From positions 1 to 13,107 of the forward strand of contig CANPNQ010000009.1 in assembly GCA_947575425.1 (NCBI GenBank): DNA of 13,107 nucleotides. The letters run 5' to 3'. A program made the translations under genes and the position numbers. This document shows positions 617 to 13,039 of the stretch, piece by piece (within the stretch, counting starts at the first letter, position 1; each line of letters begins with the position of its first letter). Under the pieces are notes generated by a model that saw only the letters and a program-made list of their open reading frames with translations, was not told where the DNA came from and did no database searches. Source of the stretch: an uncultured Erysipelotrichaceae bacterium. GTDB taxonomy: Bacteria; Bacillota_I; Bacilli_A; Erysipelotrichales; Erysipelotrichaceae.

Positions 617-1432
617 CTACATCAATGCATGCGCTTTATTGATACCTCCCTGATCCATCTCTGCTTTGGAAAAGCGAAGCATTACCTTAAACAAATCTGC
701 ATCCATTTGGATGCGCAGGGTACCGCCCTGTAGCTGTGTGAAGCATTTGACGATTGCCAAGCCAAGTCCACTTCCCTCACTGTTTCGAGAGGTATCGCCG
801 CGGGTAAAGCGTTCTGTCAGATCGTCGGGATCCATATGCAGCTCCGCTGCCGAAATATTGCGCAAGGTGATATCCGCATAAGAATCATAATCCATCATAT
901 CAATATATACACGCGTTTGTTTCATCGCGTATTTGGAGATATTCATCACCAGATTTTCAAAGATGCGATAGGTGCGCACAGGATCAAGCGGACAAATGAT
1001 TTTATCATCGCTGTGGGAAAAGCAAACCTTCAGCTTATGCTTGCTCAGCGCATCCTCACATTCCACCAGCACTTGGTTCATCAATGCCACGATATCCACG
1101 TCCACCACATCCAATTTCATTGTATGGCTGTTTGCCTTAGAAAGATCAAACAGATCATTGATCAGCTGTTTCAGGCGATGGGAATTGCGCTCCAGCACCT
1201 CCGTATATTTCTTTTGATCCTTATCCGAAAGATCCCTTTGTTTTAACAGATCCACATAAGTAATGATATTGGTGAGCGGTGTTTTCAAATCATGAGAGAT
1301 ATTGGTAATCAGCTCAGTTTTCATTCGCTGCGAATGGACTTCCTTTTCCACTGCTGCGCCAAAGCCTTGCTGGATCTCGCATAAAGGCTGCTTCATTGGT
1401 TCAAATAAGCCAAGCGCCATGTCAAGAGGCAT
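617..1432 (-). pseudogene. Histidine kinase catalytic half, sensor region missing
   Basis: The 271-residue frame carries a complete transmitter: an H-box around NISHDLKTPLTNII with the phospho-accepting His47, an N-box FENLVMNISKYA (about 158-169), an ERFTRGDTSRN segment (207-217) and the ATP-lid motif GSGLGLAI (220-227). This order and wording match Bacillota sensor kinases that normally have several membrane helices in front. Here nothing hydrophobic precedes the H-box. The frame stays open only 14 codons upstream of ATG 1432 to a TAA at 1475-1477, and no ribosome site precedes 1432 or the next ATG at 1420. A transcription terminator lies just upstream at 1528-1566. No response regulator is adjacent. 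The likeliest reading is the remnant of a larger kinase gene that lost its 5' part. A soluble, partner-fed kinase is possible but lacks a translation start signal. Confidence 0.6.
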
Positions 1433-1527
1433 AGCATTTGGATGATCCTGTAAAGATAGTATATCGAATATGCGTTAAGAAACGTGGGTGGAAATTCTTA
1501 ATATTTTCTAAAGATTATCCGATGAAG

Positions 1528-1566
1528 TGAAAAGAAAAAGCATCTATGTCACAGACAAAGATGCTT
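1528..1566 (-). terminator. Strong intrinsic terminator, minus strand
   Basis: AAGCATCT (1538-1545) pairs with AGATGCTT (1559-1566). Inside, after a single T-T mismatch, TGTC and GACA pair around a TGT loop. On the minus strand the stem runs straight into TTTTTCTTTTC, a good U-tract. It stops transcripts from the small RNA or regulator region before they reach the kinase remnant. A second pairing, ATGCTT with AAGCAT over 1561-1577, would compete with it. Confidence 0.85.
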
Positions 1567-1582
1567 GAAATAAGCATAGGGG

Positions 1583-1674
1583 AATATAAAAATGCGGCAG
1601 GTCTGCAAAATGGGGTTTTTACAGCACCAAAGCAAGGTTAAAGTGGGGGAGTTGCTTTGGCAGTGCCTGCCGCA
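1583..1674 (-). ncRNA. Probable small regulatory RNA with two C-rich hairpin loops
   Basis: No protein is encoded on this strand here, but the sequence folds into a clean three-helix RNA. P1 closes it: TGCGGCAGG (1674-1666) with CCTGCCGCA (1601-1593), 9 perfect pairs. P2 is CCAAAGCAA (1660-1652) with TTGCTTTGG (1635-1627), 9 perfect pairs, with a 16-base loop starting CTCCCCC. P3 is CTGTAAAA (1624-1617) with TTTTGCAG (1610-1603), 8 pairs including one wobble, with loop ACCCCA. P1 is followed at once by TTTTTATATT (1592-1583), which fits an intrinsic terminator end. A consensus promoter places the RNA start at 1673-1674, exactly the first base of P1. The C-rich loops resemble anti-Shine-Dalgarno loops of Bacillota small RNAs such as RsaE/RoxS and the csRNAs; that is a comparison of design, not homology. 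A readthrough form ending near 1528 is also possible. I do not recognise the family. Confidence 0.7.
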
Positions 1675-1679
1675 CCTAT

Positions 1680-1708
1680 ATTGTAATGCTTGCGTCATTT
1701 CCTGTCAA
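1680..1708 (-). promoter_or_regulatory. Sigma-A promoter of the small RNA
   Basis: On the minus strand: TTGACA at 1708-1703, a 17-base spacer, and TACAAT at 1685-1680. That is a perfect -35 and a 5-of-6 -10 at ideal spacing. The predicted start, 6-7 bases downstream, is at 1673-1674, where the closing helix of the small RNA begins. It lies after the stop codon of the XRE regulator (1757), so the RNA has its own transcription. Confidence 0.8.
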
Positions 1709-1756: not shown

Positions 1757-2083
1757 TCAGCCGGGAATGCTTTCTTTGAGCATTTCATTGAGTTGGTGAA
1801 GAATCCGAAGCAGTGCCAGCTTTTGTTTTTCATTCATGGCGGCACTGAGGGAAAGCAGCTGTGCATTCAAGGTATCTGCAGTTTCATACAGATAGGGATC
1901 CACCCGCACATTCAATATTTTGCATACCTTCAAAAAGGTGTCTGCTTCCGGAATCGCTCTGCCGACGCACCAGCGGTTGACAGTCGCTCGCTCAATCCCT
2001 AATATTGCCGCAAGTGCTGCTTGGGTCATATGATTTTTTCGTAACCCGTCTTTGATAATTGTCTTTATTTCATAATTATTCAT
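1757..2083 (-). CDS. Small XRE-family (Cro/C1-type) DNA-binding regulator
   Basis: The 108-residue product has an N-terminal helix-turn-helix of the Cro/C1 type. MTQAALAAILGIERATVNRW (about 19-38) supplies the two helices, and the IPEADTFLKVCKILNV segment (about 44-59) completes the fold. The remaining 45 or so residues are helical and charged (LSAAMNEKQKLALLRILHQL), perhaps for dimer contact; no sensory domain is visible. The start at 2083 is preferred over the ATG at 2089 because the GAGG at 2094-2091 lies 7 bases from the first and only 1 base from the second. The -10 TATAAT at 2109-2104 suits a leader of about 15 bases. The gene sits between the probable small RNA (downstream, same strand) and a divergent 44-codon gene; it could control either, but no operator pair could be assigned. 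Confidence 0.85.
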   Translation of the reverse strand: MNNYEIKTIIKDGLRKNHMTQAALAAILGIERATVNRWCVGRAIPEADTFLKVCKILNVRVDPYLYETADTLNAQLLSLSAAMNEKQKLALLRILHQLNEMLKESIPG

Positions 2084-2103
2084 AAGCATACCTCGTGTAT
2101 GCC

Positions 2104-2276: not shown

Positions 2277-2411
2277 ATGGAAGAAATGATAGAGGAATTG
2301 GCGGCTTATTACGCGGCATTGGGATATCCGCTGTATCAACGGGAAGAATTGGATAAAATGGAGGAGGAAGAGCTGGTGAATCTATATGAATTGACGTTTC
2401 CCAATCGCTAG
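2277..2411 (+). CDS. Small acidic protein of 44 residues, function unknown
   Basis: The frame encodes 44 residues: an acidic N-terminus (MEEMIEEL), an AAYYAALGYPLY segment, then a very acidic stretch around KMEEEELVNLYEL, ending FPNR. AAGGAGG at 2263-2269 stands 7 bases before the ATG, which is optimal. An intrinsic terminator follows 20 bases after the stop, so the gene is its own transcription unit, divergent from the XRE regulator. The two segments could form two short helices joined by the GYP turn. No signal peptide, membrane helix or metal-binding cysteines are present. I do not recognise the family and give no function. The strong ribosome site and the independent terminator are the arguments that it is real. 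Confidence 0.65.
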   Translation: MEEMIEELAAYYAALGYPLYQREELDKMEEEELVNLYELTFPNR

Positions 2412-2430: not shown

Positions 2431-2478
2431 ATCTTGCGCGGGTGGACCTCATCCGTTTGATGTAAGATTTTTATTTTC
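2431..2478 (+). terminator. Intrinsic terminator of the 44-codon gene
   Basis: ATCTTGC-GCGGGTG (2431-2444) pairs with CATCCGT (2450-2456) and GTAAGAT (2462-2468), with a 5-base bulge on the 3' arm and a few G-U pairs. The stem is followed by TTTTTATTTTC. The bulge makes it weaker than a perfect stem, but the U-tract is good. Confidence 0.6.
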
Positions 2479-2639
2479 ATGGTTTTAAGGTGCGATTGTC
2501 TGTGGCGATCGCCTGTTGGAAAAAGGCAATCATTTGTCTCATTTCAACTCACTGCTTTTGATCATGACCAATCTTAAGGAAAAGACTGTTTTTACATCGC
2601 AAAACATGATAAAATAGGGAAGGAAAGGAAGGACTTTTT

Positions 2640-3999: not shown

Positions 4000-4800
4000 A
4001 TGAAACCGACAAAAATGACCTTTCAACGTTTGGAAAAGAAGTATTTGCTTCCAAAGGAACAATGTGTACAGTTTTGTGAAAGCGCGAAGGAATATCTTGA
4101 AATGGACCCTTACGGTCCCTCAACCATATGCAATATTTACTTTGACACAGAGGATGATCGCTTGATATCCACTTCTTTACAGAAGCCGCCTTATAAGGAA
4201 AAACTGCGGTTACGCAGTTATGGGGTTGCGAAGGAGGATTCCCTCGTATATTTAGAGATCAAAAAGAAATGCCGCGGCGTGGTCAGCAAGCGCAGAATCG
4301 CATTGAGTTTGGAAGAGGCAAGGGCAAATATCAATGAGGGCATTGCGATTGCGCACCACTCACAAATACTATCGGAGATCGAATACTTTATGCACTTTTA
4401 TCATCCTTTCCCTAAAGTATTTTTGGCGTATGACCGCATTCCGTATATCGGCAAAGAACAGGATGGCTTGCGCATCACCTTTGATGAGCGGATTCGCAGA
4501 AGATATGATCATTTGGATTTAGGCTATGGAGATGATGGCGAGCTGTTATTGAAAGAGGGTATGACATTGATGGAGATCAAGGTGACGAATGCGTATCCAT
4601 TATGGCTGACCCATATGTTATCTGATATGCAAATATATCCGATCTCTTTTTCAAAATATGGCAGCGTTTTTACCAAAGATACGTTGCAGCAGGAGGCGGA
4701 TAAGAAAAAAAGAAGTGCTTATAGGCAAACCGATAGCTTATCATTGGCAGAAGGAATATCCTCACAGAAAGGAGCTGTACTATGTTCACCGGTATTTTAA
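4000..4800 (+). CDS. VTC-type polyphosphate polymerase domain protein
   Basis: The 266-residue protein has the charged tunnel pattern of the VTC (vacuolar transporter chaperone) catalytic domain: RLEKKYLL (10-17) near the N-terminus, KEKLRLRSYG (66-75), YLEIKKK (85-91), SKRRIAL (96-102), LAYDRIPYIG (142-151), TFDERIRRRYD (159-169), LMEIKV (190-195) and SFSKYG (216-221). In yeast Vtc4 such basic and acidic residues bind ATP, metal and the growing phosphate chain. The bacterial relatives are named polyphosphate polymerase domain proteins, but their products are rarely tested. No membrane helix is present, so it is probably cytoplasmic and acts at the membrane with the next gene. GAGGTGAT at 3989-3996 precedes the ATG. 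The end overlaps the DUF4956 gene by 19 bases. The last 30 residues are hydrophilic and loosely conserved in appearance. Confidence 0.88.
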   Translation: MKPTKMTFQRLEKKYLLPKEQCVQFCESAKEYLEMDPYGPSTICNIYFDTEDDRLISTSLQKPPYKEKLRLRSYGVAKEDSLVYLEIKKKCRGVVSKRRIALSLEEARANINEGIAIAHHSQILSEIEYFMHFYHPFPKVFLAYDRIPYIGKEQDGLRITFDERIRRRYDHLDLGYGDDGELLLKEGMTLMEIKVTNAYPLWLTHMLSDMQIYPISFSKYGSVFTKDTLQQEADKKKRSAYRQTDSLSLAEGISSQKGAVLCSPVF

Positions 4801-5456
4801 ATGAAGGAATGAATAGCTTGACATTTATGGAGGGTGCGATATGCACGCTTACTTCCTTGCTTTTGGGCGCATGGATTGCCATCGTTTATGCGATCCAAGG
4901 CAATTCAAGCAAACAGTTCCGCATATCGCTGGTATTGCTTCCGGGATTGGTGCAATTAGTCATTATGATGGTAAACGGTAATCTGGGGACCGGTGTTGCG
5001 GCATTGGGCGCATTTTCGCTGGTGCGCTTTCGATCTGTGCCGGGCAGTTCCAGAGAGATCGTTTTTATCTTCTTTGCGATGGCCATCGGCTTGGCAAGCG
5101 GTATGGGCTATTTGAGCTTTGCCTGCTTTATTTCCTTTGTCATAGGGCTTGCGACATTACTGCTTTATAAATTGCCATTTGGAAATATCCCTACGACAAA
5201 GAAGGATCTCCACATTACGATACCGGAAAACTTGGATTATACGCAGATATTTGACGATATCTTTGCGCGCTATCTCAAGCAGGTGGAATTGATTAAGGTA
5301 AAGACGATCAATCTTGGCTCTATGTTTGAAGTATATTATCAAGTTACGTTAAAAGATGTTCACGAAGAAAAAGCGATGATCGACGCCATTCGCTGCCGCA
5401 ATGGTAATTTGAGTGTTGTCGTATCGAGAAGGCAGGTAATCAGTGATGAATTATAA
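4782..5456 (+). CDS. DUF4956 membrane protein
   Basis: The 224-residue product starts with a membrane half. Helices are seen at about 18-38, 48-65, 70-82, 92-108 and 111-130. The conserved-looking loop AALGAFSLVRFRSVPGSSRE (73-92) marks the DUF4956 family. The C-terminal 90 residues are soluble, with beta-alpha character (DLHITIPENLDYTQIFDDIF), as in a small cytoplasmic regulatory domain. AAAGGAG at 4768-4774 lies 7 bases before ATG, and the gene overlaps its neighbours on both sides, so translation is coupled. The family regularly sits next to VTC-domain genes. The inferred role is a membrane partner or channel for whatever the VTC protein makes; its biochemistry is not established as far as I know. 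Confidence 0.88.
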   Translation: MFTGILNEGMNSLTFMEGAICTLTSLLLGAWIAIVYAIQGNSSKQFRISLVLLPGLVQLVIMMVNGNLGTGVAALGAFSLVRFRSVPGSSREIVFIFFAMAIGLASGMGYLSFACFISFVIGLATLLLYKLPFGNIPTTKKDLHITIPENLDYTQIFDDIFARYLKQVELIKVKTINLGSMFEVYYQVTLKDVHEEKAMIDAIRCRNGNLSVVVSRRQVISDEL

Positions 5457-7419
5457 GAAGGAATATCTTATAGCAGGTAGGGAGGAACCCCGCTGCCATG
5501 GGAAATTTCATTTTAGGAATGGTCAAAAGCAAAATCGAAAAAGAATGCTTGCACTCGCCCTTTGTCTGAATGTGCTATGGGGGTGCAGCCATGGAAATGA
5601 TAACACAAGCGCAGCGGATCATGATGCGTCATCAGATGTCATTTCATATGATGCGGACGACTGGTACAGCGACTATGATCCGGCGAATGTCAGCGCGATT
5701 GATCTCAGTGCGCAAAGCGGAAATGTAACGATCACAAAGGCAGGCACTTATGAGTTGAGCGGTACTTTAAAAGGCAGTGTCGAAATAAACGTAGGGAAAA
5801 ACGATACCGTTCGTTTGATCCTGAACAATGCGACCATTCAAGCAAAGAGCGGTCCGGCGATCATCAGTACACAGGGAGAAAAGCTGATACTCTCTATGCC
5901 GAGCGGGACAAAGAATGCGGTATCGGATGGCGCTTATGACAGCAATGGCAGCGGAGCAGACGCAGCGATCTTTGTTCAGGATGATCTGACGATCAATGGG
6001 GAAGGACAGCTGAGCGTCACAAGCGGCTATTATGATGCGATCAAAACGAAGGATACACTGAAGCTGATGTCGGGCAGTTATGTGATAACAGCTGCAGATG
6101 ACGGTATCGTAGGCAGAGATTTCATCTATGTGCATGATGGTGCCTATGTGCTCGAGGTTTCCGGTGATGCAATGAAAACCACATACGATACAGATGACTT
6201 TAAAGGAGATATCATAATTGAGAATGGCACCTTTGATATCCAAGCGGGAAATGACGGGATTCAAAGTGAGCATCGCCTGTCTCTGTATGATGGAAACTAT
6301 AAGATCCAAACCGGCGGCGGCAGTGTAAATGGGGTGACAGCGGAAAATGCATTTGAAAAGGGTGGATTCGGTCGTTGGAATGAGGCGAGCAGCAATGCGC
6401 TGCAAAGCGAAGATACTCCCAGCGCCAAAGGGATCAAGTCCGGCAGTGATATGGTTCTGTATGGGGGAATCTATGATATGGACACAAGCGATGATTCCTT
6501 TCATTCCAATGCGAATCTGACGATCAAAGGCGGTAATTTTACCATTGCCAGCGGGGATGATGGGTTTCATAGTGACGCTGTATTGACGCTTGCGGATGGC
6601 AGTGTCGATGTGATCAAAAGCTATGAAGGATTGGAAGGTAGCGATGTGATCATCCATGGTGGTTATCTGCTGGTAAAAGCTAGTGATGATGGAATCAATG
6701 CGGCGGGCGGCAGTGATGGCGATAATGCGTCCCAGCCTTCACCGGATCATTTTATGGATTCCGATCATGTGATTGAAATTCATGGCGGAGCGATACAAGT
6801 GGATGCGATGGGGGATGGATTGGACTCCAACAGTTCCATTGTGATGAATGGGGGAAGCGCGGTGATCTGCGGACCGGATGACGGTGCCAATGGTGCATTG
6901 GATTATGAAGGGGTGTTTGCGATGAATGGCGGTATCTTGGTTGCGTTGGGAAGCTCGCAAATGGCAATGGCTCCTTCCTCCAGCTCAAAGCAATACGGAC
7001 TTATGATCCATACATCGATGCAGGAGGCAAAATCCATCGCTTACCTAAGCGATGAAGCTGGCAATATGATCATAGGCTTTACATCTCCTCGTGCTTACTC
7101 CAGTATTGTGATCAGTACACCGCAGTTACAGGCGCAGCAAACCTATCAACTGTATGTGAATGCGAGCGGCGGCAATGTCAATGACAACGGATATATCGAA
7201 AGCGGTATACAAGAGGGTACTTTGGCAGAGACCATTACCTTATCGCAGCAAATGACCGTTTCGGGCAATGCAGGAATGAATGGCATGGAATTCCATGGCG
7301 GGATGAGAGACCAAGGAGGTATGGAAACTCAAGGCAGGGAGCCTATGGAGTTTGATGGGCAATTCCCGCAAGAGCCTCCGCAGATGAAAGAAGGAGGGAA
7401 AGACGCTTTCAGACAATAA
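5446..7419 (+). CDS. Beta-helix lipoprotein, Cthe_2159-type carbohydrate-binding domain
   Basis: This 657-residue surface protein has a 33-residue basic head, then a hydrophobic core and a lipobox (MLALALCLNVLWGC, Cys47), so it should be lipid-anchored outside the membrane. After a Ser/Asp-rich linker, residues from about 80 to 500 repeat units of roughly 20-50 residues with the theme DDG[IF]xS followed by a beta-strand (ADDGIVG, GNDGIQS, GDDGFHS, SDDGINA, GDGLDS, PDDGANG). This is the pattern of right-handed beta-helix proteins of the Cthe_2159 type, which bind calcium and acidic polysaccharide. The last 50 residues are rich in Gly, Met, Gln and Pro. ATG 5446 overlaps the DUF4956 stop by 11 bases; GTG 5443 is an alternative. 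ATG 5545 would give a normal-length signal peptide but has no ribosome site. The ligand is unknown. Confidence 0.85.
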   Translation: MNYKKEYLIAGREEPRCHGKFHFRNGQKQNRKRMLALALCLNVLWGCSHGNDNTSAADHDASSDVISYDADDWYSDYDPANVSAIDLSAQSGNVTITKAGTYELSGTLKGSVEINVGKNDTVRLILNNATIQAKSGPAIISTQGEKLILSMPSGTKNAVSDGAYDSNGSGADAAIFVQDDLTINGEGQLSVTSGYYDAIKTKDTLKLMSGSYVITAADDGIVGRDFIYVHDGAYVLEVSGDAMKTTYDTDDFKGDIIIENGTFDIQAGNDGIQSEHRLSLYDGNYKIQTGGGSVNGVTAENAFEKGGFGRWNEASSNALQSEDTPSAKGIKSGSDMVLYGGIYDMDTSDDSFHSNANLTIKGGNFTIASGDDGFHSDAVLTLADGSVDVIKSYEGLEGSDVIIHGGYLLVKASDDGINAAGGSDGDNASQPSPDHFMDSDHVIEIHGGAIQVDAMGDGLDSNSSIVMNGGSAVICGPDDGANGALDYEGVFAMNGGILVALGSSQMAMAPSSSSKQYGLMIHTSMQEAKSIAYLSDEAGNMIIGFTSPRAYSSIVISTPQLQAQQTYQLYVNASGGNVNDNGYIESGIQEGTLAETITLSQQMTVSGNAGMNGMEFHGGMRDQGGMETQGREPMEFDGQFPQEPPQMKEGGKDAFRQ

Positions 7420-7744
7420 GGAGAGAGAAGAAGCGCATAGGAAATCGTATCTTATGCACGTTTGCTTTTGACTTTACTTTCCGCTGATAGTTCAGTAAAA
7501 TTTCAAAAAGAGAGATGCACGTATGATAGAGAGGATGAGCAGGATATGCAGGAAGCATCTGTTGTCCCTCCTATTTGACTGATATGGCAGAAAATCGTCC
7601 GATTTGATGCATGAATGTGTGGGAAAAGGACATAGTAAACAGTAAAGAAATCGCATGCGCACCCCGCTTTGCCATATGCGATATCAGGATTTACGAATTC
7701 AAGAAGTAAAAGGTATGAATTTGATGATGAAGGAGGAAGCCGTT
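7420..7744 (+). other. Non-coding leader between the lipoprotein and hydrolase genes
   Basis: No credible gene fills these 325 bases. A hairpin, GCATAGGA (7435-7442) with TCTTATGC (7450-7457), could be a weak terminator for the VTC operon; the following T-rich stretch is broken by G and C. An inverted repeat ATCGCAT (7650-7656) / ATGCGAT (7676-7682) lies 63 bases before the hydrolase start. No promoter with both hexamers in place was found; TTTACG (7690-7695) with TATGAA (7714-7719) at 18 bases is a weak candidate. Confidence 0.45.
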
Positions 7745-8719
7745 ATGTGTACTGCAATTACCTTTCAAACAAAAGATTTCTATTTTGGAAGAACGATGGA
7801 CTATGATATTTCTTACAATGAAGAGATTGCAATCACACCGCGCAATATGCCATTCTATTTCCGTCACACCAAGGAGCTCTCTCATCATTATGCGCTGATC
7901 GGCATGGCGTATGTCAATGGAGGATATCCGCTGTATTATGAAGCGGTGAATGAAAAGGGACTTGGTATGGCTGGATTGAATTTTCCCGGCAATGCGGCAT
8001 TTTATGAGCGGGAGGAAGGCAAGGATAACATTGCCCAGTTTGAAATGATCCCATGGATCTTGGGACAATGCGAAAGTGTGAAGGAAGCGAGAGATTTGCT
8101 TGCGCATTTGAATCTTGTGAATACCTCTTTTCATGAAGATCTGCCGACAGCCGAATTGCACTGGATCATTGCCGATCAAAATGAATGCATTGTCTTGGAG
8201 TGCGTCAAAGAGGGGATGATGGTGTACGATAACCCCATTGGCGTCCTTACCAATAATCCGCCCTTTCCCCAGCAGCTGCTTCGTTTGAATGATTATGTGC
8301 AGCTGAGTCCTAAACAGCCGCAGAATCGCTTTAGCGAGCAATTCCCCTTTACTCCATACAGCCGCGGCATGGGAGCGATTGGGCTGCCCGGAGATTTGTC
8401 CTCACCATCACGCTTTGTACGTGCCGCCTTTGTGAAACTGAACTCCCTCTGTGAACAAAGCGAAGCAAAAAGCGTCAGTCAGTTTTTCCATATCTTGAAT
8501 GCGGTCGACCAACAGCGCGGGTGCTGTGAAGTGGCAGACGATACATTTGAATTTACCATTTATACTTCCTGTTGCAATGCAAGCAAAGGCATTTATTACT
8601 ATACGACTTATGATAACCATCAGATTCAAGCGGTCGATATGCGCAAGGAAAATTTAGATGGAAGTGAATTGATCCGCTATGATTTGCGGCAGGAAGAATC
8701 CATTCATGTTCAGAATTGA
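7745..8719 (+). CDS. Choloylglycine hydrolase family enzyme, bile salt hydrolase-like
   Basis: This is an N-terminal nucleophile amidase that would cleave glycine or taurine from conjugated bile acids, or a related amide such as penicillin V. The start is set at 7745, not the upstream ATG at 7655: AAGGAGG (7730-7736) is 8 bases before it, and it yields MCTA, so removal of Met exposes the nucleophile Cys2. Other expected active-site residues are present: Arg16 and Asp19 in FGRTMD, Asn79 in AGLNFP, Asn170 or Asn171 in LTNNPPF, and Arg223 in SPSRF. The YSRGMGAIGLPGD segment (205-217) matches bile salt hydrolases of gut Bacillota. At 324 residues it is full length with no signal peptide, so the enzyme is cytoplasmic. 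It is a single-gene unit with no bile transporter beside it. Bile salt hydrolase is favoured over penicillin acylase. Confidence 0.88.
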   Translation: MCTAITFQTKDFYFGRTMDYDISYNEEIAITPRNMPFYFRHTKELSHHYALIGMAYVNGGYPLYYEAVNEKGLGMAGLNFPGNAAFYEREEGKDNIAQFEMIPWILGQCESVKEARDLLAHLNLVNTSFHEDLPTAELHWIIADQNECIVLECVKEGMMVYDNPIGVLTNNPPFPQQLLRLNDYVQLSPKQPQNRFSEQFPFTPYSRGMGAIGLPGDLSSPSRFVRAAFVKLNSLCEQSEAKSVSQFFHILNAVDQQRGCCEVADDTFEFTIYTSCCNASKGIYYYTTYDNHQIQAVDMRKENLDGSELIRYDLRQEESIHVQN

Positions 8720-10263: not shown

Positions 10264-11073
10264 TTACATGATACCGATAAGTGTCATGACGATTCCAAAG
10301 CCAAGCAATCCGAAAATGATATAATTGACCTTTGTACCCTTCATTAACAGTTTATAGACAAACAAGGATAACAGCAGCGGCAGTAAATTCGGCATGATAC
10401 CGTTTAATACATCCGCTAGGACAAAGGTGCCGCCGCCCATTTCCCAAGTTAATGACAGCGGGAATCTGACGATCTGCGGGATCATACCGCCGATAACGAC
10501 CATGGCAAGTACCTTTGCAGCATCTGTCAATTTAGCCAAAGTACCGTCTGCCTGTATTCTGGCAAGGAATTGGCGTCCTCCGTTATAACCGAGCTTAAAT
10601 CCATACCATCTGGTCAAGGTGGATGGAATCAGGTTCAGCAACAGATACAAAATGACACCAAGCACATTGCCTTCCGCGGCAAGCGGTGCGCCGACACCAC
10701 ATGCGATCAGTCGGAATGTACCCCAGAAAAAACTGTCACCAATGCCCGCAAGAGGTCCCATCAAGGCAATCTTTACTGCTCCGATGCTGTCAGGATTAAA
10801 TTGACCGCTCTCATCGTTGGCATATTCCTCTTCCATGGCACAGGAGATGCCTAAACAGAAAGGTACAAATGCGCAGGTGGTATTGAACATCGTATTGTGG
10901 CGCTTCATCGCCTCGATCAGCTTATCCTGTTCGGGGTATAGCTTCTGTAATGCGGGAAGCATGGCTCTCAAATAAGGGATACCCTGTTGCTTATCATAGG
11001 AGTAACAGCCCAGAGCCTGATAATGCCTCCAATATACTGAATTGAGTTCTTTCTTTGTTAGTGATACGCCCAT
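10264..11073 (-). CDS. PTS mannose-family EIID membrane component
   Basis: EIID pairs with EIIC in the membrane to carry sugar inward while EIIB phosphorylates it. The 269 residues match the family in length and order: a cytoplasmic N-terminal region with LTKKELNSVYWRHYQALGCY (5-24), which resembles the conserved start of EIID; an amphipathic region with KRHNTMFNTT (57-66); the signature IALMGPLAGIGDSFFWGT (102-119); several hydrophobic helices; and a final membrane anchor ending LGFGIVMTLIGIM. GGAGG (11088-11084) is 10 bases before ATG. The gene starts 2 bases after the EIIC stop, so the two are translated together. Which sugar is carried cannot be told from EIID alone. Confidence 0.94.
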   Translation of the reverse strand: MGVSLTKKELNSVYWRHYQALGCYSYDKQQGIPYLRAMLPALQKLYPEQDKLIEAMKRHNTMFNTTCAFVPFCLGISCAMEEEYANDESGQFNPDSIGAVKIALMGPLAGIGDSFFWGTFRLIACGVGAPLAAEGNVLGVILYLLLNLIPSTLTRWYGFKLGYNGGRQFLARIQADGTLAKLTDAAKVLAMVVIGGMIPQIVRFPLSLTWEMGGGTFVLADVLNGIMPNLLPLLLSLFVYKLLMKGTKVNYIIFGLLGFGIVMTLIGIM

Positions 11074-11075
11074 AA

Positions 11076-11816
11076 TTAGTCATCCTCCACTTCGTTTGGT
11101 TTTAAGAAGAAGTAAATCAATGCGGCACCGACGCCTGCCAGTGCAACTGCGACACTTCCAAACTCCAAATAGGTAGGCAATAAGAAGCCGAGGAGGAAGA
11201 AGCCCACAAATTTGATATCAAAGGAATACTGCATTAAGATTCCGATGCCGACTGCCGGCAAAATTGCACTGGCATTGGATAATCCATCACGCACGATTTG
11301 CGGAATGGATTCAATGACGGCATTGACTGCCGCAGATCCTGCAGATACAGCCAAGAATACCGCTGTACCGTACATCAGTGCTTGCGTTGCACATCCGGCA
11401 AGACCCAACCACCAGATCTTTTTGGTATCACCGACTTCTGCCGCTCTGTTTGCCATCGGAGACCAAACAGTAATAGTGATCGTATTATTCACCTCACCGA
11501 TCAGGGTAGCCAATAAGCCGACCGGAATCGCGATGGTGATCGCTTCCGCAACGGATAAACCGTTGATAATTGCCAATCCGCACGCTACCGTAGAACCGGT
11601 AACTACCTCTGTTGGCGTTGCGCCAACCTGAACGACACCTGCCCAAATCAATTCCAAAGATCCGCCGATGATAACTCCTTGTTGAAAATCACCCAACAGT
11701 AAGCCGACAAGCGGACATAACCAAATTGGTCTTGCGATCATCTGCTGCCCCATCCAGCCTTGTTCCAAACGACCGTACACAGCGACCAAGCAAACTAAAA
11801 ACGCTTGTAAAATCAT
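11076..11816 (-). CDS. PTS mannose-family EIIC membrane component
   Basis: EIIC is the main sugar channel of the mannose-family PTS. The 246-residue protein is hydrophobic throughout and shows family segments: an N-terminal helix, RPIWLCPLVGLLLGD (about 29-43), the signature GGSLELIWAGVVQVGATPTE (51-70) and NNTITITVWSPMANRAAEVGD (about 109-129), then C-terminal helices ending in an acidic tail (EVEDD). The start at 11816 is chosen because AAGGAG (11829-11824) lies 7 bases upstream; a longer frame from 11870 would run through a long RNA hairpin and add a basic head foreign to the family. It is separated from EIIB by 198 bases, unusual inside an operon, and lies 2 bases before EIID. Confidence 0.94.
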   Translation of the reverse strand: MILQAFLVCLVAVYGRLEQGWMGQQMIARPIWLCPLVGLLLGDFQQGVIIGGSLELIWAGVVQVGATPTEVVTGSTVACGLAIINGLSVAEAITIAIPVGLLATLIGEVNNTITITVWSPMANRAAEVGDTKKIWWLGLAGCATQALMYGTAVFLAVSAGSAAVNAVIESIPQIVRDGLSNASAILPAVGIGILMQYSFDIKFVGFFLLGFLLPTYLEFGSVAVALAGVGAALIYFFLKPNEVEDD

Positions 11817-11842
11817 ATTTTTTCTCCTTTTCTCTTTCCTGA

Positions 11843-11891
11843 TGTGCAATATAGAGCGAAGACAAAACAACAGAACTCTATCGATTGCACA
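11843..11891 (-). other. Long intercistronic hairpin between EIIB and EIIC
   Basis: TGTGCAATATAGAG (11843-11856) pairs with CTCTAT (11876-11881) and ATTGCACA (11884-11891), giving 14 base pairs with one 2-base bulge (CG) and a 19-base loop. It ends 14 bases before the EIIC ribosome site. On the minus strand no U-tract follows, so it is not a terminator. It may set the EIIC/EIID expression level by protecting mRNA or marking a processing point. No promoter for EIIC was found in the gap. Confidence 0.6.
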
Positions 11892-12014
11892 ATGCTGCCA
11901 AATACTTAATAAAATTCGCTATAAATTGTTTCACCACTCATTGAATGTGGGGCTTTCATGCCCTGCGCCATATACCGTGATATTGACTATATCCATGGAC
12001 TGCTTCCGCGCGTA

Positions 12015-12518
12015 CTACTTGAATTTTGCTTCAATGTCGCTCCATTCTACCTTTGGCATTGCAGTAGTGATTTGCGCAAAGATCTCCTTGCCTTCCTCAT
12101 GAAGCTCCTTCAAAAGATTGAATTTGGCTTCACTGATCCACACATCCTCACTAATCTCTTTTTTTCCTTCTGTGACCCGACCATCGCCGCCATCTACTTC
12201 CGGACCGATATTGATGGTTTGAATGGCAGAACAGCGCTTCGCAATATCATAGGCATCCTCTACGGTTGCGACAGTAATAAACATTTTCTTTTTATCATAC
12301 TTACCGCTGTTGATCCGTTCCACTGCCTTATCCTTTGTCCATACAAAGCATTTTTCCACGCTGCCGGGCTTTGCCAGTTTTAAGGTCATTGTGTGAAATT
12401 CATCATTGGCAGCCGCATCATTGACGACTGCTAAAATCTGCGGATTGTACATTCCACACCATGTAACTGCGACCATACCATGAATCAAACGCCCATCTAC
12501 TCTAACTAGCTGGATCAT
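12015..12518 (-). CDS. PTS mannose-family EIIB component
   Basis: EIIB is the cytoplasmic phosphocarrier that takes phosphate from EIIA and passes it to the incoming sugar. The 167-residue product begins with the family signature VRVDGRLIHGMVAVTW (5-20); His13 is the expected phosphorylation site. The usual form reads RVDDRLIHGQV, so Gly9 and Met15 are minor variants. Later features include ILAVVNDAAANDE (28-40) and the INIGPEVDGGDGR segment (101-113), both typical of this fold. The length is normal. AGGAG (12531-12527) is 8 bases before ATG, and ATG overlaps the EIIA stop by 4 bases (ATGA), so the two soluble parts are made together. After the stop comes a 198-base gap before EIIC. Confidence 0.94.
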   Translation of the reverse strand: MIQLVRVDGRLIHGMVAVTWCGMYNPQILAVVNDAAANDEFHTMTLKLAKPGSVEKCFVWTKDKAVERINSGKYDKKKMFITVATVEDAYDIAKRCSAIQTINIGPEVDGGDGRVTEGKKEISEDVWISEAKFNLLKELHEEGKEIFAQITTAMPKVEWSDIEAKFK

Positions 12519-12943
12519 GAAACATTCTCCTCTCTTTCATCGTCATCATCATCGTCATCTGACGCTTGAAGCAATACATCATTCATATAGGCGAACTGTT
12601 GCTTGGAAGCCTCCAGCGCATTGCGAAGGAACGCTTCATCGATTTCTGTTTGTGCAAACATACATTCCATGATGACTGCTAGATTCATTCCGGTAATCAA
12701 ATGAAAGCGATATTTTGCCAATAAGCGGAAAAAGCATTGATTGACAGAGCCTCCATACAGATCGGTAAATACGATACAATTCTTGTCCTTGTGCTGTTCT
12801 AACAGATCCTCTGCCTTGTTCGCAAAGCCGGAATCGGTCAGTGTCTGTTCTAAAACCAAGACCTCACCGCCACCGAAGAAGCGCAATGTTTCTGCCATGC
12901 CCGAAGCCAGTTTACTGTGAGATGCAAGTATAATCTGATTCAC
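12515..12943 (-). CDS. PTS mannose-family EIIA component with Asp-rich tail
   Basis: EIIA accepts phosphate from HPr. The 142-residue product starts NQIILASHSKLASGM, with His9 as the expected phosphorylation site, and contains the FTDLYGGSVNQ segment (59-69), which matches the conserved DLxGG loop of EIIA-Man domains. The start is GTG at 12943: GAGGTGA (12956-12950) lies 6 bases upstream and no in-frame ATG fits. The end is unusual: seven aspartates in a row (129-135), written as GAT and GAC triplets, then EREENVS. In mannose-type proteins with fused EIIA and EIIB such acidic or flexible stretches act as linkers; here the gene for EIIB follows as a separate frame with a 4-base overlap. It is the first gene of the operon. 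Confidence 0.93.
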   Translation of the reverse strand: MNQIILASHSKLASGMAETLRFFGGGEVLVLEQTLTDSGFANKAEDLLEQHKDKNCIVFTDLYGGSVNQCFFRLLAKYRFHLITGMNLAVIMECMFAQTEIDEAFLRNALEASKQQFAYMNDVLLQASDDDDDDDEREENVS

Positions 12944-12975
12944 TGATGATCACCTCGTTTCGTCTGATTTGTTTC

Positions 12976-12991
12976 AATGCCAAGCGGCATT
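12976..12991 (-). promoter_or_regulatory. Leader hairpin or operator of the PTS operon
   Basis: AATGCC (12976-12981) and GGCATT (12986-12991) form a perfect 6-bp inverted repeat around AAGC. It lies in the 5' leader, about 15 bases after the predicted transcript start and 20 bases before the EIIA ribosome site. It could be a regulator site or a small hairpin; no U-tract follows. Confidence 0.4.
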
Positions 12992-13010
12992 ATGAGCTAT
13001 TAGTAATTAG

Positions 13011-13039
13011 ATTATATATATTATTTGCTGCTATGTCAA
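13011..13039 (-). promoter_or_regulatory. Consensus sigma-A promoter of the PTS operon
   Basis: On the minus strand: TTGACA (13039-13034), a 17-base spacer, and TATAAT (13016-13011). Both hexamers and the spacing are perfect. Transcription should start near 13004, giving a leader of about 60 bases. Many mannose-family operons use sigma-54 with a LevR-type activator; no -24/-12 element was seen here. Confidence 0.88.

Follow-up and report, generated by a model that had tools for sequence, protein, structure and literature searches.

The window, i.e. the whole stretch of DNA that was analysed (13,107 nt, contig CANPNQ010000009.1 of an uncultured Erysipelotrichaceae bacterium), carries on its minus strand a candidate small RNA (sRNA) gene located between an Xre-type HTH gene and a histidine kinase gene. 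The features of this region are as follows.

1757-2089, minus strand: HTH (Xre-type) gene, upstream of the candidate (PF01381, 3.9e-10)
1680-1708, minus strand: promoter TTGACA (1708-1703), 17-nt spacer, TACAAT (1685-1680), with 11/12 matches in the promoter scan
1673, minus strand: most likely transcription start (G), 7 nt past the last base of the -10 element, as predicted from the usual promoter spacing
1593-1674, minus strand: three-helix core P1, P2 and P3, from folding and a shuffle test
1674-1666/1601-1593, minus strand: P1, 9 bp, from fold prediction
1661-1652/1635-1626, minus strand: P2, 10 bp including one terminal G-U pair, from fold prediction
1636-1651, minus strand: P2 loop CTCCCCCACTTTAACC, which contains UCCC, from sequence and fold
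1624-1617/1610-1603, minus strand: P3, 8 bp, from fold prediction
1611-1616, minus strand: P3 loop ACCCCA, from sequence and fold
1588-1592, minus strand: U5 directly after P1, a possible first terminator that would give an RNA of ~86-91 nt
1579-1583, minus strand: third C run UCCCC (CCCC at 1582-1579) in the linker, present in the longer form only
1535-1566, minus strand: terminator-like hairpin AAGCATCT...AGATGCTT (1566-1538) with U5 (1539-1535), folding at -13.5 kcal/mol
617-1432, minus strand: histidine kinase gene (271 aa), downstream of the candidate, from domain and protein searches

Promoter and predicted fold

The near-consensus minus-strand promoter claimed in the preliminary description was recovered by the promoter scan. 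Just two promoters of the window reach at least 11/12 matches, and the site at 1708-1680(-) ranks behind the perfect promoter at 13039-13011(-); a looser scan (at least 9/12 matches) gave 35 sites in the window vs 27.6 expected (sd 5.9). The best-placed purine for a transcription start is G1673, the second base of P1; starts at 1674 or 1672 are possible alternatives. The start is thus predicted to fall at the edge of P1, as had been proposed, but not exactly on the first base of this helix.

The 92-nt stretch 1674-1583(-) was predicted to fold at -35 kcal/mol (z -6.45), and none of 200 shuffled sequences was equally stable, which bears out the closed three-helix RNA described earlier. P1 and P3 have the lengths given there, while P2, taken to be 9 bp, has 10 bp when the terminal G-U pair is counted; the core contains two G-U pairs. 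The mean pair probabilities of P1 to P3 were 0.96-1.0 in transcripts of 91, 146, 233, and 562 nt. The plus-strand copy of the element gave a z of -2.45, with 5 of 200 shuffles as stable. When 1,736 tiled 92-nt windows covering both strands of the whole window were folded, the lowest free energy was that of 1586-1677(-) (-37.0 kcal/mol), with the runner-up windows near in energy (-35.7 kcal/mol). Another strong fold in the window was located at 2476-2567(+) (z -5.1).

Loops, unpaired bases and 3' ends

The two C-rich loops, the U-run after the closing helix, and a further CCCC, all mentioned in the preliminary description, were found in the sequence and the predicted fold. Unpaired UCCC occurs in the loop at 1651-1636 and in the linker at 1583-1579, while the loop at 1616-1611 has ACCCC, not UCCC; the linker C run is unpaired in the predicted folds starting at 1673-1674. 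Among the 38 unpaired bases, there is one G (hypergeometric P 0.001), and the 15 C are not unusual (hypergeometric P 0.09). The comparison set consisted of 30,158 tiled windows, which are out of register, and 983 of them folded at -28 kcal/mol or better. Within these 983 windows, again out of register, 11 had no more than one unpaired G, and three combined this with at least 15 unpaired C, none of the three being the element locus. Two unpaired CCCC runs were found in 0/983 stable windows and in 75/30,158 of all windows, with the same limit of register. G-poor unpaired bases with C runs would be expected of an RNA that shows seeds to G-rich partners and avoids self-pairing, and the predicted fold fits this expectation.

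The hairpin at 1566-1535 is absent from the preliminary description and was not listed by the terminator scan of the window. It would end a longer form of the RNA of ~140 nt.

Searches for homologues

A BLASTN search with 311 nt against 194 relatives gave matches in six genomes including its own, and the RNA core was found nowhere else in this set. The five non-self matches covered 24-43 nt; three were inside long frames and two were ahead of another gene. A covariance model (R1) was built on the single sequence. In the 194 relatives at E 1, R1 gave four matches, namely its own and three in coding frames. In 272 family genomes at E 0.5, it gave six, namely its own and five others, two of which repeated the search of the 194 relatives. 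The three new matches were rejected: two (E 0.005 and 0.011) are inside the same membrane-protein-like frame, and the third (E 0.42) overlaps the start of another membrane-protein-like frame. At E 0.01, R1 matched its own genome only in 392 phylum genomes, and its own genome plus the E 0.005 match already seen in 315 order genomes. The element was found by R1 in 0/6 congeners. These genome sets overlap one another, and for sets of more than 40 genomes, which were searched with stricter filters and candidates partly scored in 10 to 22 genomes each, weak relatives could escape.

Phage and plasmid records gave no match at 1e-5, and at E 10 four plasmid records had 25-nt matches. Four exact patterns (22-29 nt) gave 0 matches each in viral contigs. 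A loose pattern was found in at least 118 stretches of genome contigs scattered over phyla, and R1 matched none of the 80 of these stretches that were searched at E 1. The whole window had no Rfam family match at E 5. When 231 nt were compared with Rfam, eight weak matches were obtained, none of which reached the gathering score and none of which was RsaE; the single riboswitch among the eight was SAM-I-IV, on the opposite strand and at 15.5 bits vs a gathering score of 41.1. The covariance search (Infernal/Rfam) that had been suggested as a check, thus, returned no homologue from the searched genomes and none from Rfam. The element appears to be an orphan, seen in a single genome so far.

Neighbouring genes

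The stop codon of the HTH gene is 48 nt ahead of the -35 element, and the RNA would begin ~80 nt after this stop. Two weak terminator-like sites (1754-1737 and 1741-1722) are located between the HTH stop and the promoter; read-through from the HTH gene could also feed the RNA. In five of six congeners, the HTH gene adjoins sua5 and rpiB, and it is absent from the stretch fetched of the sixth. The region beyond the HTH gene differs between this genome and the congeners. Four congeners have there genes that we take to be those of S6, ssb, and S18, recognised without a family search, and one has a HAD-type gene on the other strand. The RNA, therefore, sits in a segment not common to the congeners, which could be newly acquired or the survivor of a deletion.

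The downstream kinase gene is probably 5'-truncated, i.e. its product lacks an N-terminal part. This reading rests on the closest relative among those listed (77% identical, 433 aa) and two others examined (457 and 441 aa). The 120 relatives listed, from a search admitting only lengths of 0.55-1.75 times the query, range from 245 to 470 aa, so short kinases do occur, in some cases on contigs of great length. The homology to the closest relative begins near residue 4 as judged by eye, and the ~100 nt ahead of the kinase ATG contain stops in all three frames. The same kinase protein is recorded on five contigs, so a one-off error of assembly does not explain this form. For the HTH protein, 10 contigs are recorded, and HTH relatives with 91% and 90% identity are known from one contig each.

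Chance tests in the own assembly

Chance tests, which were picked after the element had been seen, were performed on 699 kb of the own assembly, made up of 81/292 contigs; the completeness of this assembly is 66.5%. Five first-order Markov sequences had 12-26 promoters with 11-12 of 12 matches, and the 699 kb had 59. Folding of the 92 nt that follow each of the 59 promoters gave an in-register comparison, in which the leader of the element was the most stable. The second-best leader (-27.2 kcal/mol) looks like a tRNA leader, judged by eye from the letters. In arbitrary register, 59/55,434 tiled windows fold as well as the element after G+C correction. The number of promoter-fold coincidences expected in 699 kb, calculated as a product, was about 0.06. 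This figure is a lower bound, since the element was placed in its optimal register and the tiled windows in an arbitrary one. On a coarser grid, the pair of windows closest to the element fold at just -20.6 and -16.0 kcal/mol. A chance origin of the promoter together with the fold is unlikely but possible.

Two other loci, G000:C13 ~2600-2690 and G000:C4 ~16125-16216, gave some of the strongest folds in the sampled contigs. They are long inverted repeats that appear on both strands and may be terminators or the ends of mobile elements.

Pairing of the loops with predicted gene starts

The energy of duplex formation with 553 starts called by a script was calculated for the P2 loop, the P3 loop, and the tail, with 12 shuffles and one reversal each; the test ignores accessibility, and the start calls are crude and come from 81/292 contigs of an incomplete assembly. 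At these 553 crudely predicted starts, the loops did not outperform shuffled versions with the same composition. The mean of the best 20 starts was -16.6 for the P2 loop (-17.7 for its shuffles), -11.5 for the P3 loop (-11.7), and -14.8 for the tail (-15.0). Reversed loops outscored the real loops at the predicted starts, and the best match of the P3 loop and of the tail was the opposite strand of their own locus. The P2 loop had a mean of -8.5 at starts vs -7.2 in gene interiors; since shuffled loops bind starts at least equally (-9.7), this slight preference is no special fit.

Near-exact loop complements were also sought in the 81 contigs. One of them, AGTGGGGGAGA before an ATG in contig C70, resembles a ribosome site; it is inside a longer frame (5076-5943) and was rejected as coding sequence. 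As regards the earlier suggestion of a trans regulator acting on Shine-Dalgarno sites, the G-poor loops with C runs fit such a role, but the comparison with shuffled loops at predicted starts speaks neither for nor against it.

A putative sRNA gene with exposed C runs

The promoter, the fold edge, the U-run, and the terminator-like hairpin follow one another in order on one strand. By sequence alone, the element has features of a stand-alone sRNA gene, namely its own promoter, its own terminator, and no coding sequence. These features support the transcribed, structured RNA proposed in the preliminary description, and a stand-alone sRNA gene is likely to be present. We consider it somewhat more probable than an even chance that 1674-1535(-) is such a gene with exposed C-rich seeds for trans pairing with G-rich mRNA.

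Based on this reading, it was hypothesised that the RNA acts as described below. RNA polymerase with the housekeeping sigma factor would start transcription at ~1673. A part of the transcripts may stop at U5 after P1, giving an RNA of ~90 nt, and the remaining transcripts would stop at the hairpin 1566-1535, giving an RNA of ~140 nt. The RNA is predicted to form a rigid Y fold, the stems of which take nearly all of the G, leaving two C runs exposed in the short form and three in the long form. The C runs would most likely serve as seeds for pairing in trans with G-rich mRNA, e.g. at ribosome-binding sites, and this pairing may lower the translation or stability of the target mRNA.

C-rich sRNAs are known in Bacillota. 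Streptococcal csRNAs have C-rich stretches that are said to pair with ribosome sites. The candidate resembles them in its C-rich stretches and differs from them in having no Rfam match. An unpaired UCCC motif is reportedly present in 48% of the curated sRNAs of S. aureus, and these curated sRNAs are mostly species-specific (PMC5826253). An orphan bearing UCCC would, therefore, be no exception. The candidate is like the UCCC-motif sRNAs of Bacillota in its own promoter and terminator and its unpaired UCCC (PMC5826253); unlike them, it is known from its sequence alone and the search for targets gave none, and no relation to them in sequence or structure is apparent. RoxS binds the ribosome site of ppnKB via a C-rich region, and RsaE/RoxS, like the candidate, has several C-rich regions (CRR1-4) (PMC4409812). 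Unlike RsaE/RoxS, the candidate has no Rfam match, and while RsaE/RoxS is conserved between Bacillus and Staphylococcus, the candidate was found in a single genome.

Tentatively, the element may be the first member of an undescribed sRNA family, in which a Y scaffold presents C runs for many G-rich ribosome sites and the choice of terminator gains or loses the third run; we regard this extension as doubtful. If it is transcribed, the candidate would add a well-defined sRNA gene to the cases of C-loop design, one whose sequence shows no visible kinship with those described so far. The element lends itself to testing, being short, clearly bounded, and open to simple predictions, and as an sRNA it would overturn nothing known.

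Alternative explanations

The element may instead be a relic or a chance structure, i.e. a strong fold in rearranged DNA next to a promoter-like sequence, with no functional RNA gene. The junction, which is not common to the congeners, and the probable truncation of the adjoining kinase gene agree with this explanation, as do the homologue searches, none of which found the element in another genome, and the existence of windows in arbitrary register that fold equally well. Against a relic speak the ordering of promoter, fold edge, U-run, and terminator-like hairpin on a single strand, the weaker fold of the opposite strand, and the first rank of the element among the 59 promoter leaders. We consider a relic rather unlikely.

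A leader of the riboswitch-like attenuator type would consist of a three-helix sensor and a terminator, the downstream gene having been lost or cut in the rearrangement of the kinase region. The candidate is like a riboswitch with a terminator in that promoter, three-way junction, and terminator follow in order, with a gene behind them, and a 6-bp hairpin (-4.2 kcal/mol) that shares the 5' arm of the terminator could be an anti-terminator. Unlike such a riboswitch, it contains no known aptamer by Rfam, where no riboswitch reached the gathering score, and it is not closely followed by a gene that looks intact; between the hairpin and the kinase ATG lie ~100 nt that contain no open frame. Besides, P1 is not in competition with the terminator, and the long P2 loop lacks G and is unpaired. 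These points make a leader improbable.

The RNA could also derive from the HTH mRNA, the structured 3' end of which would be released or stabilised as a 3'-UTR RNA; the promoter-like site would then be secondary. It is on the same strand as the HTH gene and begins ~80 nt past its stop, and the core fold was also predicted in HTH read-through transcripts. This origin is quite improbable in view of the near-consensus promoter immediately ahead of P1, the two weak terminator-like sites that separate the HTH stop from this promoter, and the failure of R1 to find the element in any of the six congeners, though the HTH gene is next to rpiB in five of them. An antisense RNA directed at a plus-strand message, in the style of an antitoxin RNA, is scarcely credible: the element is the perfect complement of the start of the open frame 1592-2002, which has AGGGGA before its ATG, but most of this frame is a mirror of the HTH gene, Pfam gave no match for it at E 0.1, and the nearby plus-strand promoter-like sites are just weak (9/12).

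Other features of the window

The sequence TTTAGAAAATATTAAGAATTT is located at 1492-1512(-), and an identical copy is found before a membrane-protein-like frame in two genomes of another genus (L005 and L006). TATACT follows it in all three places. TTTAGAAAATATTAAGAATTT with TATACT is possibly a regulated promoter severed from its gene. Elsewhere in the 81 contigs, TTTAGAAAATATTAAGAATTT was not found with three or fewer mismatches, and two places were found with four or fewer.

A 44-aa frame at 2277-2411(+), divergent from the HTH gene, has no Pfam match, and one congener (L256) has a similar small protein at the same place. Adjacent genes at 4000-7419(+) encode proteins with VTC, DUF4956, and Cthe_2159 domains. 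A protein of the choloylglycine hydrolase (CBAH) family, of which bile salt hydrolases are members, is encoded at 7655-8719(+). The genes for IIA, IIB, IIC, and IID of a mannose-type PTS are located at 10264-13039(-) behind the perfect TTGACA-17-TATAAT promoter at 13039-13011.
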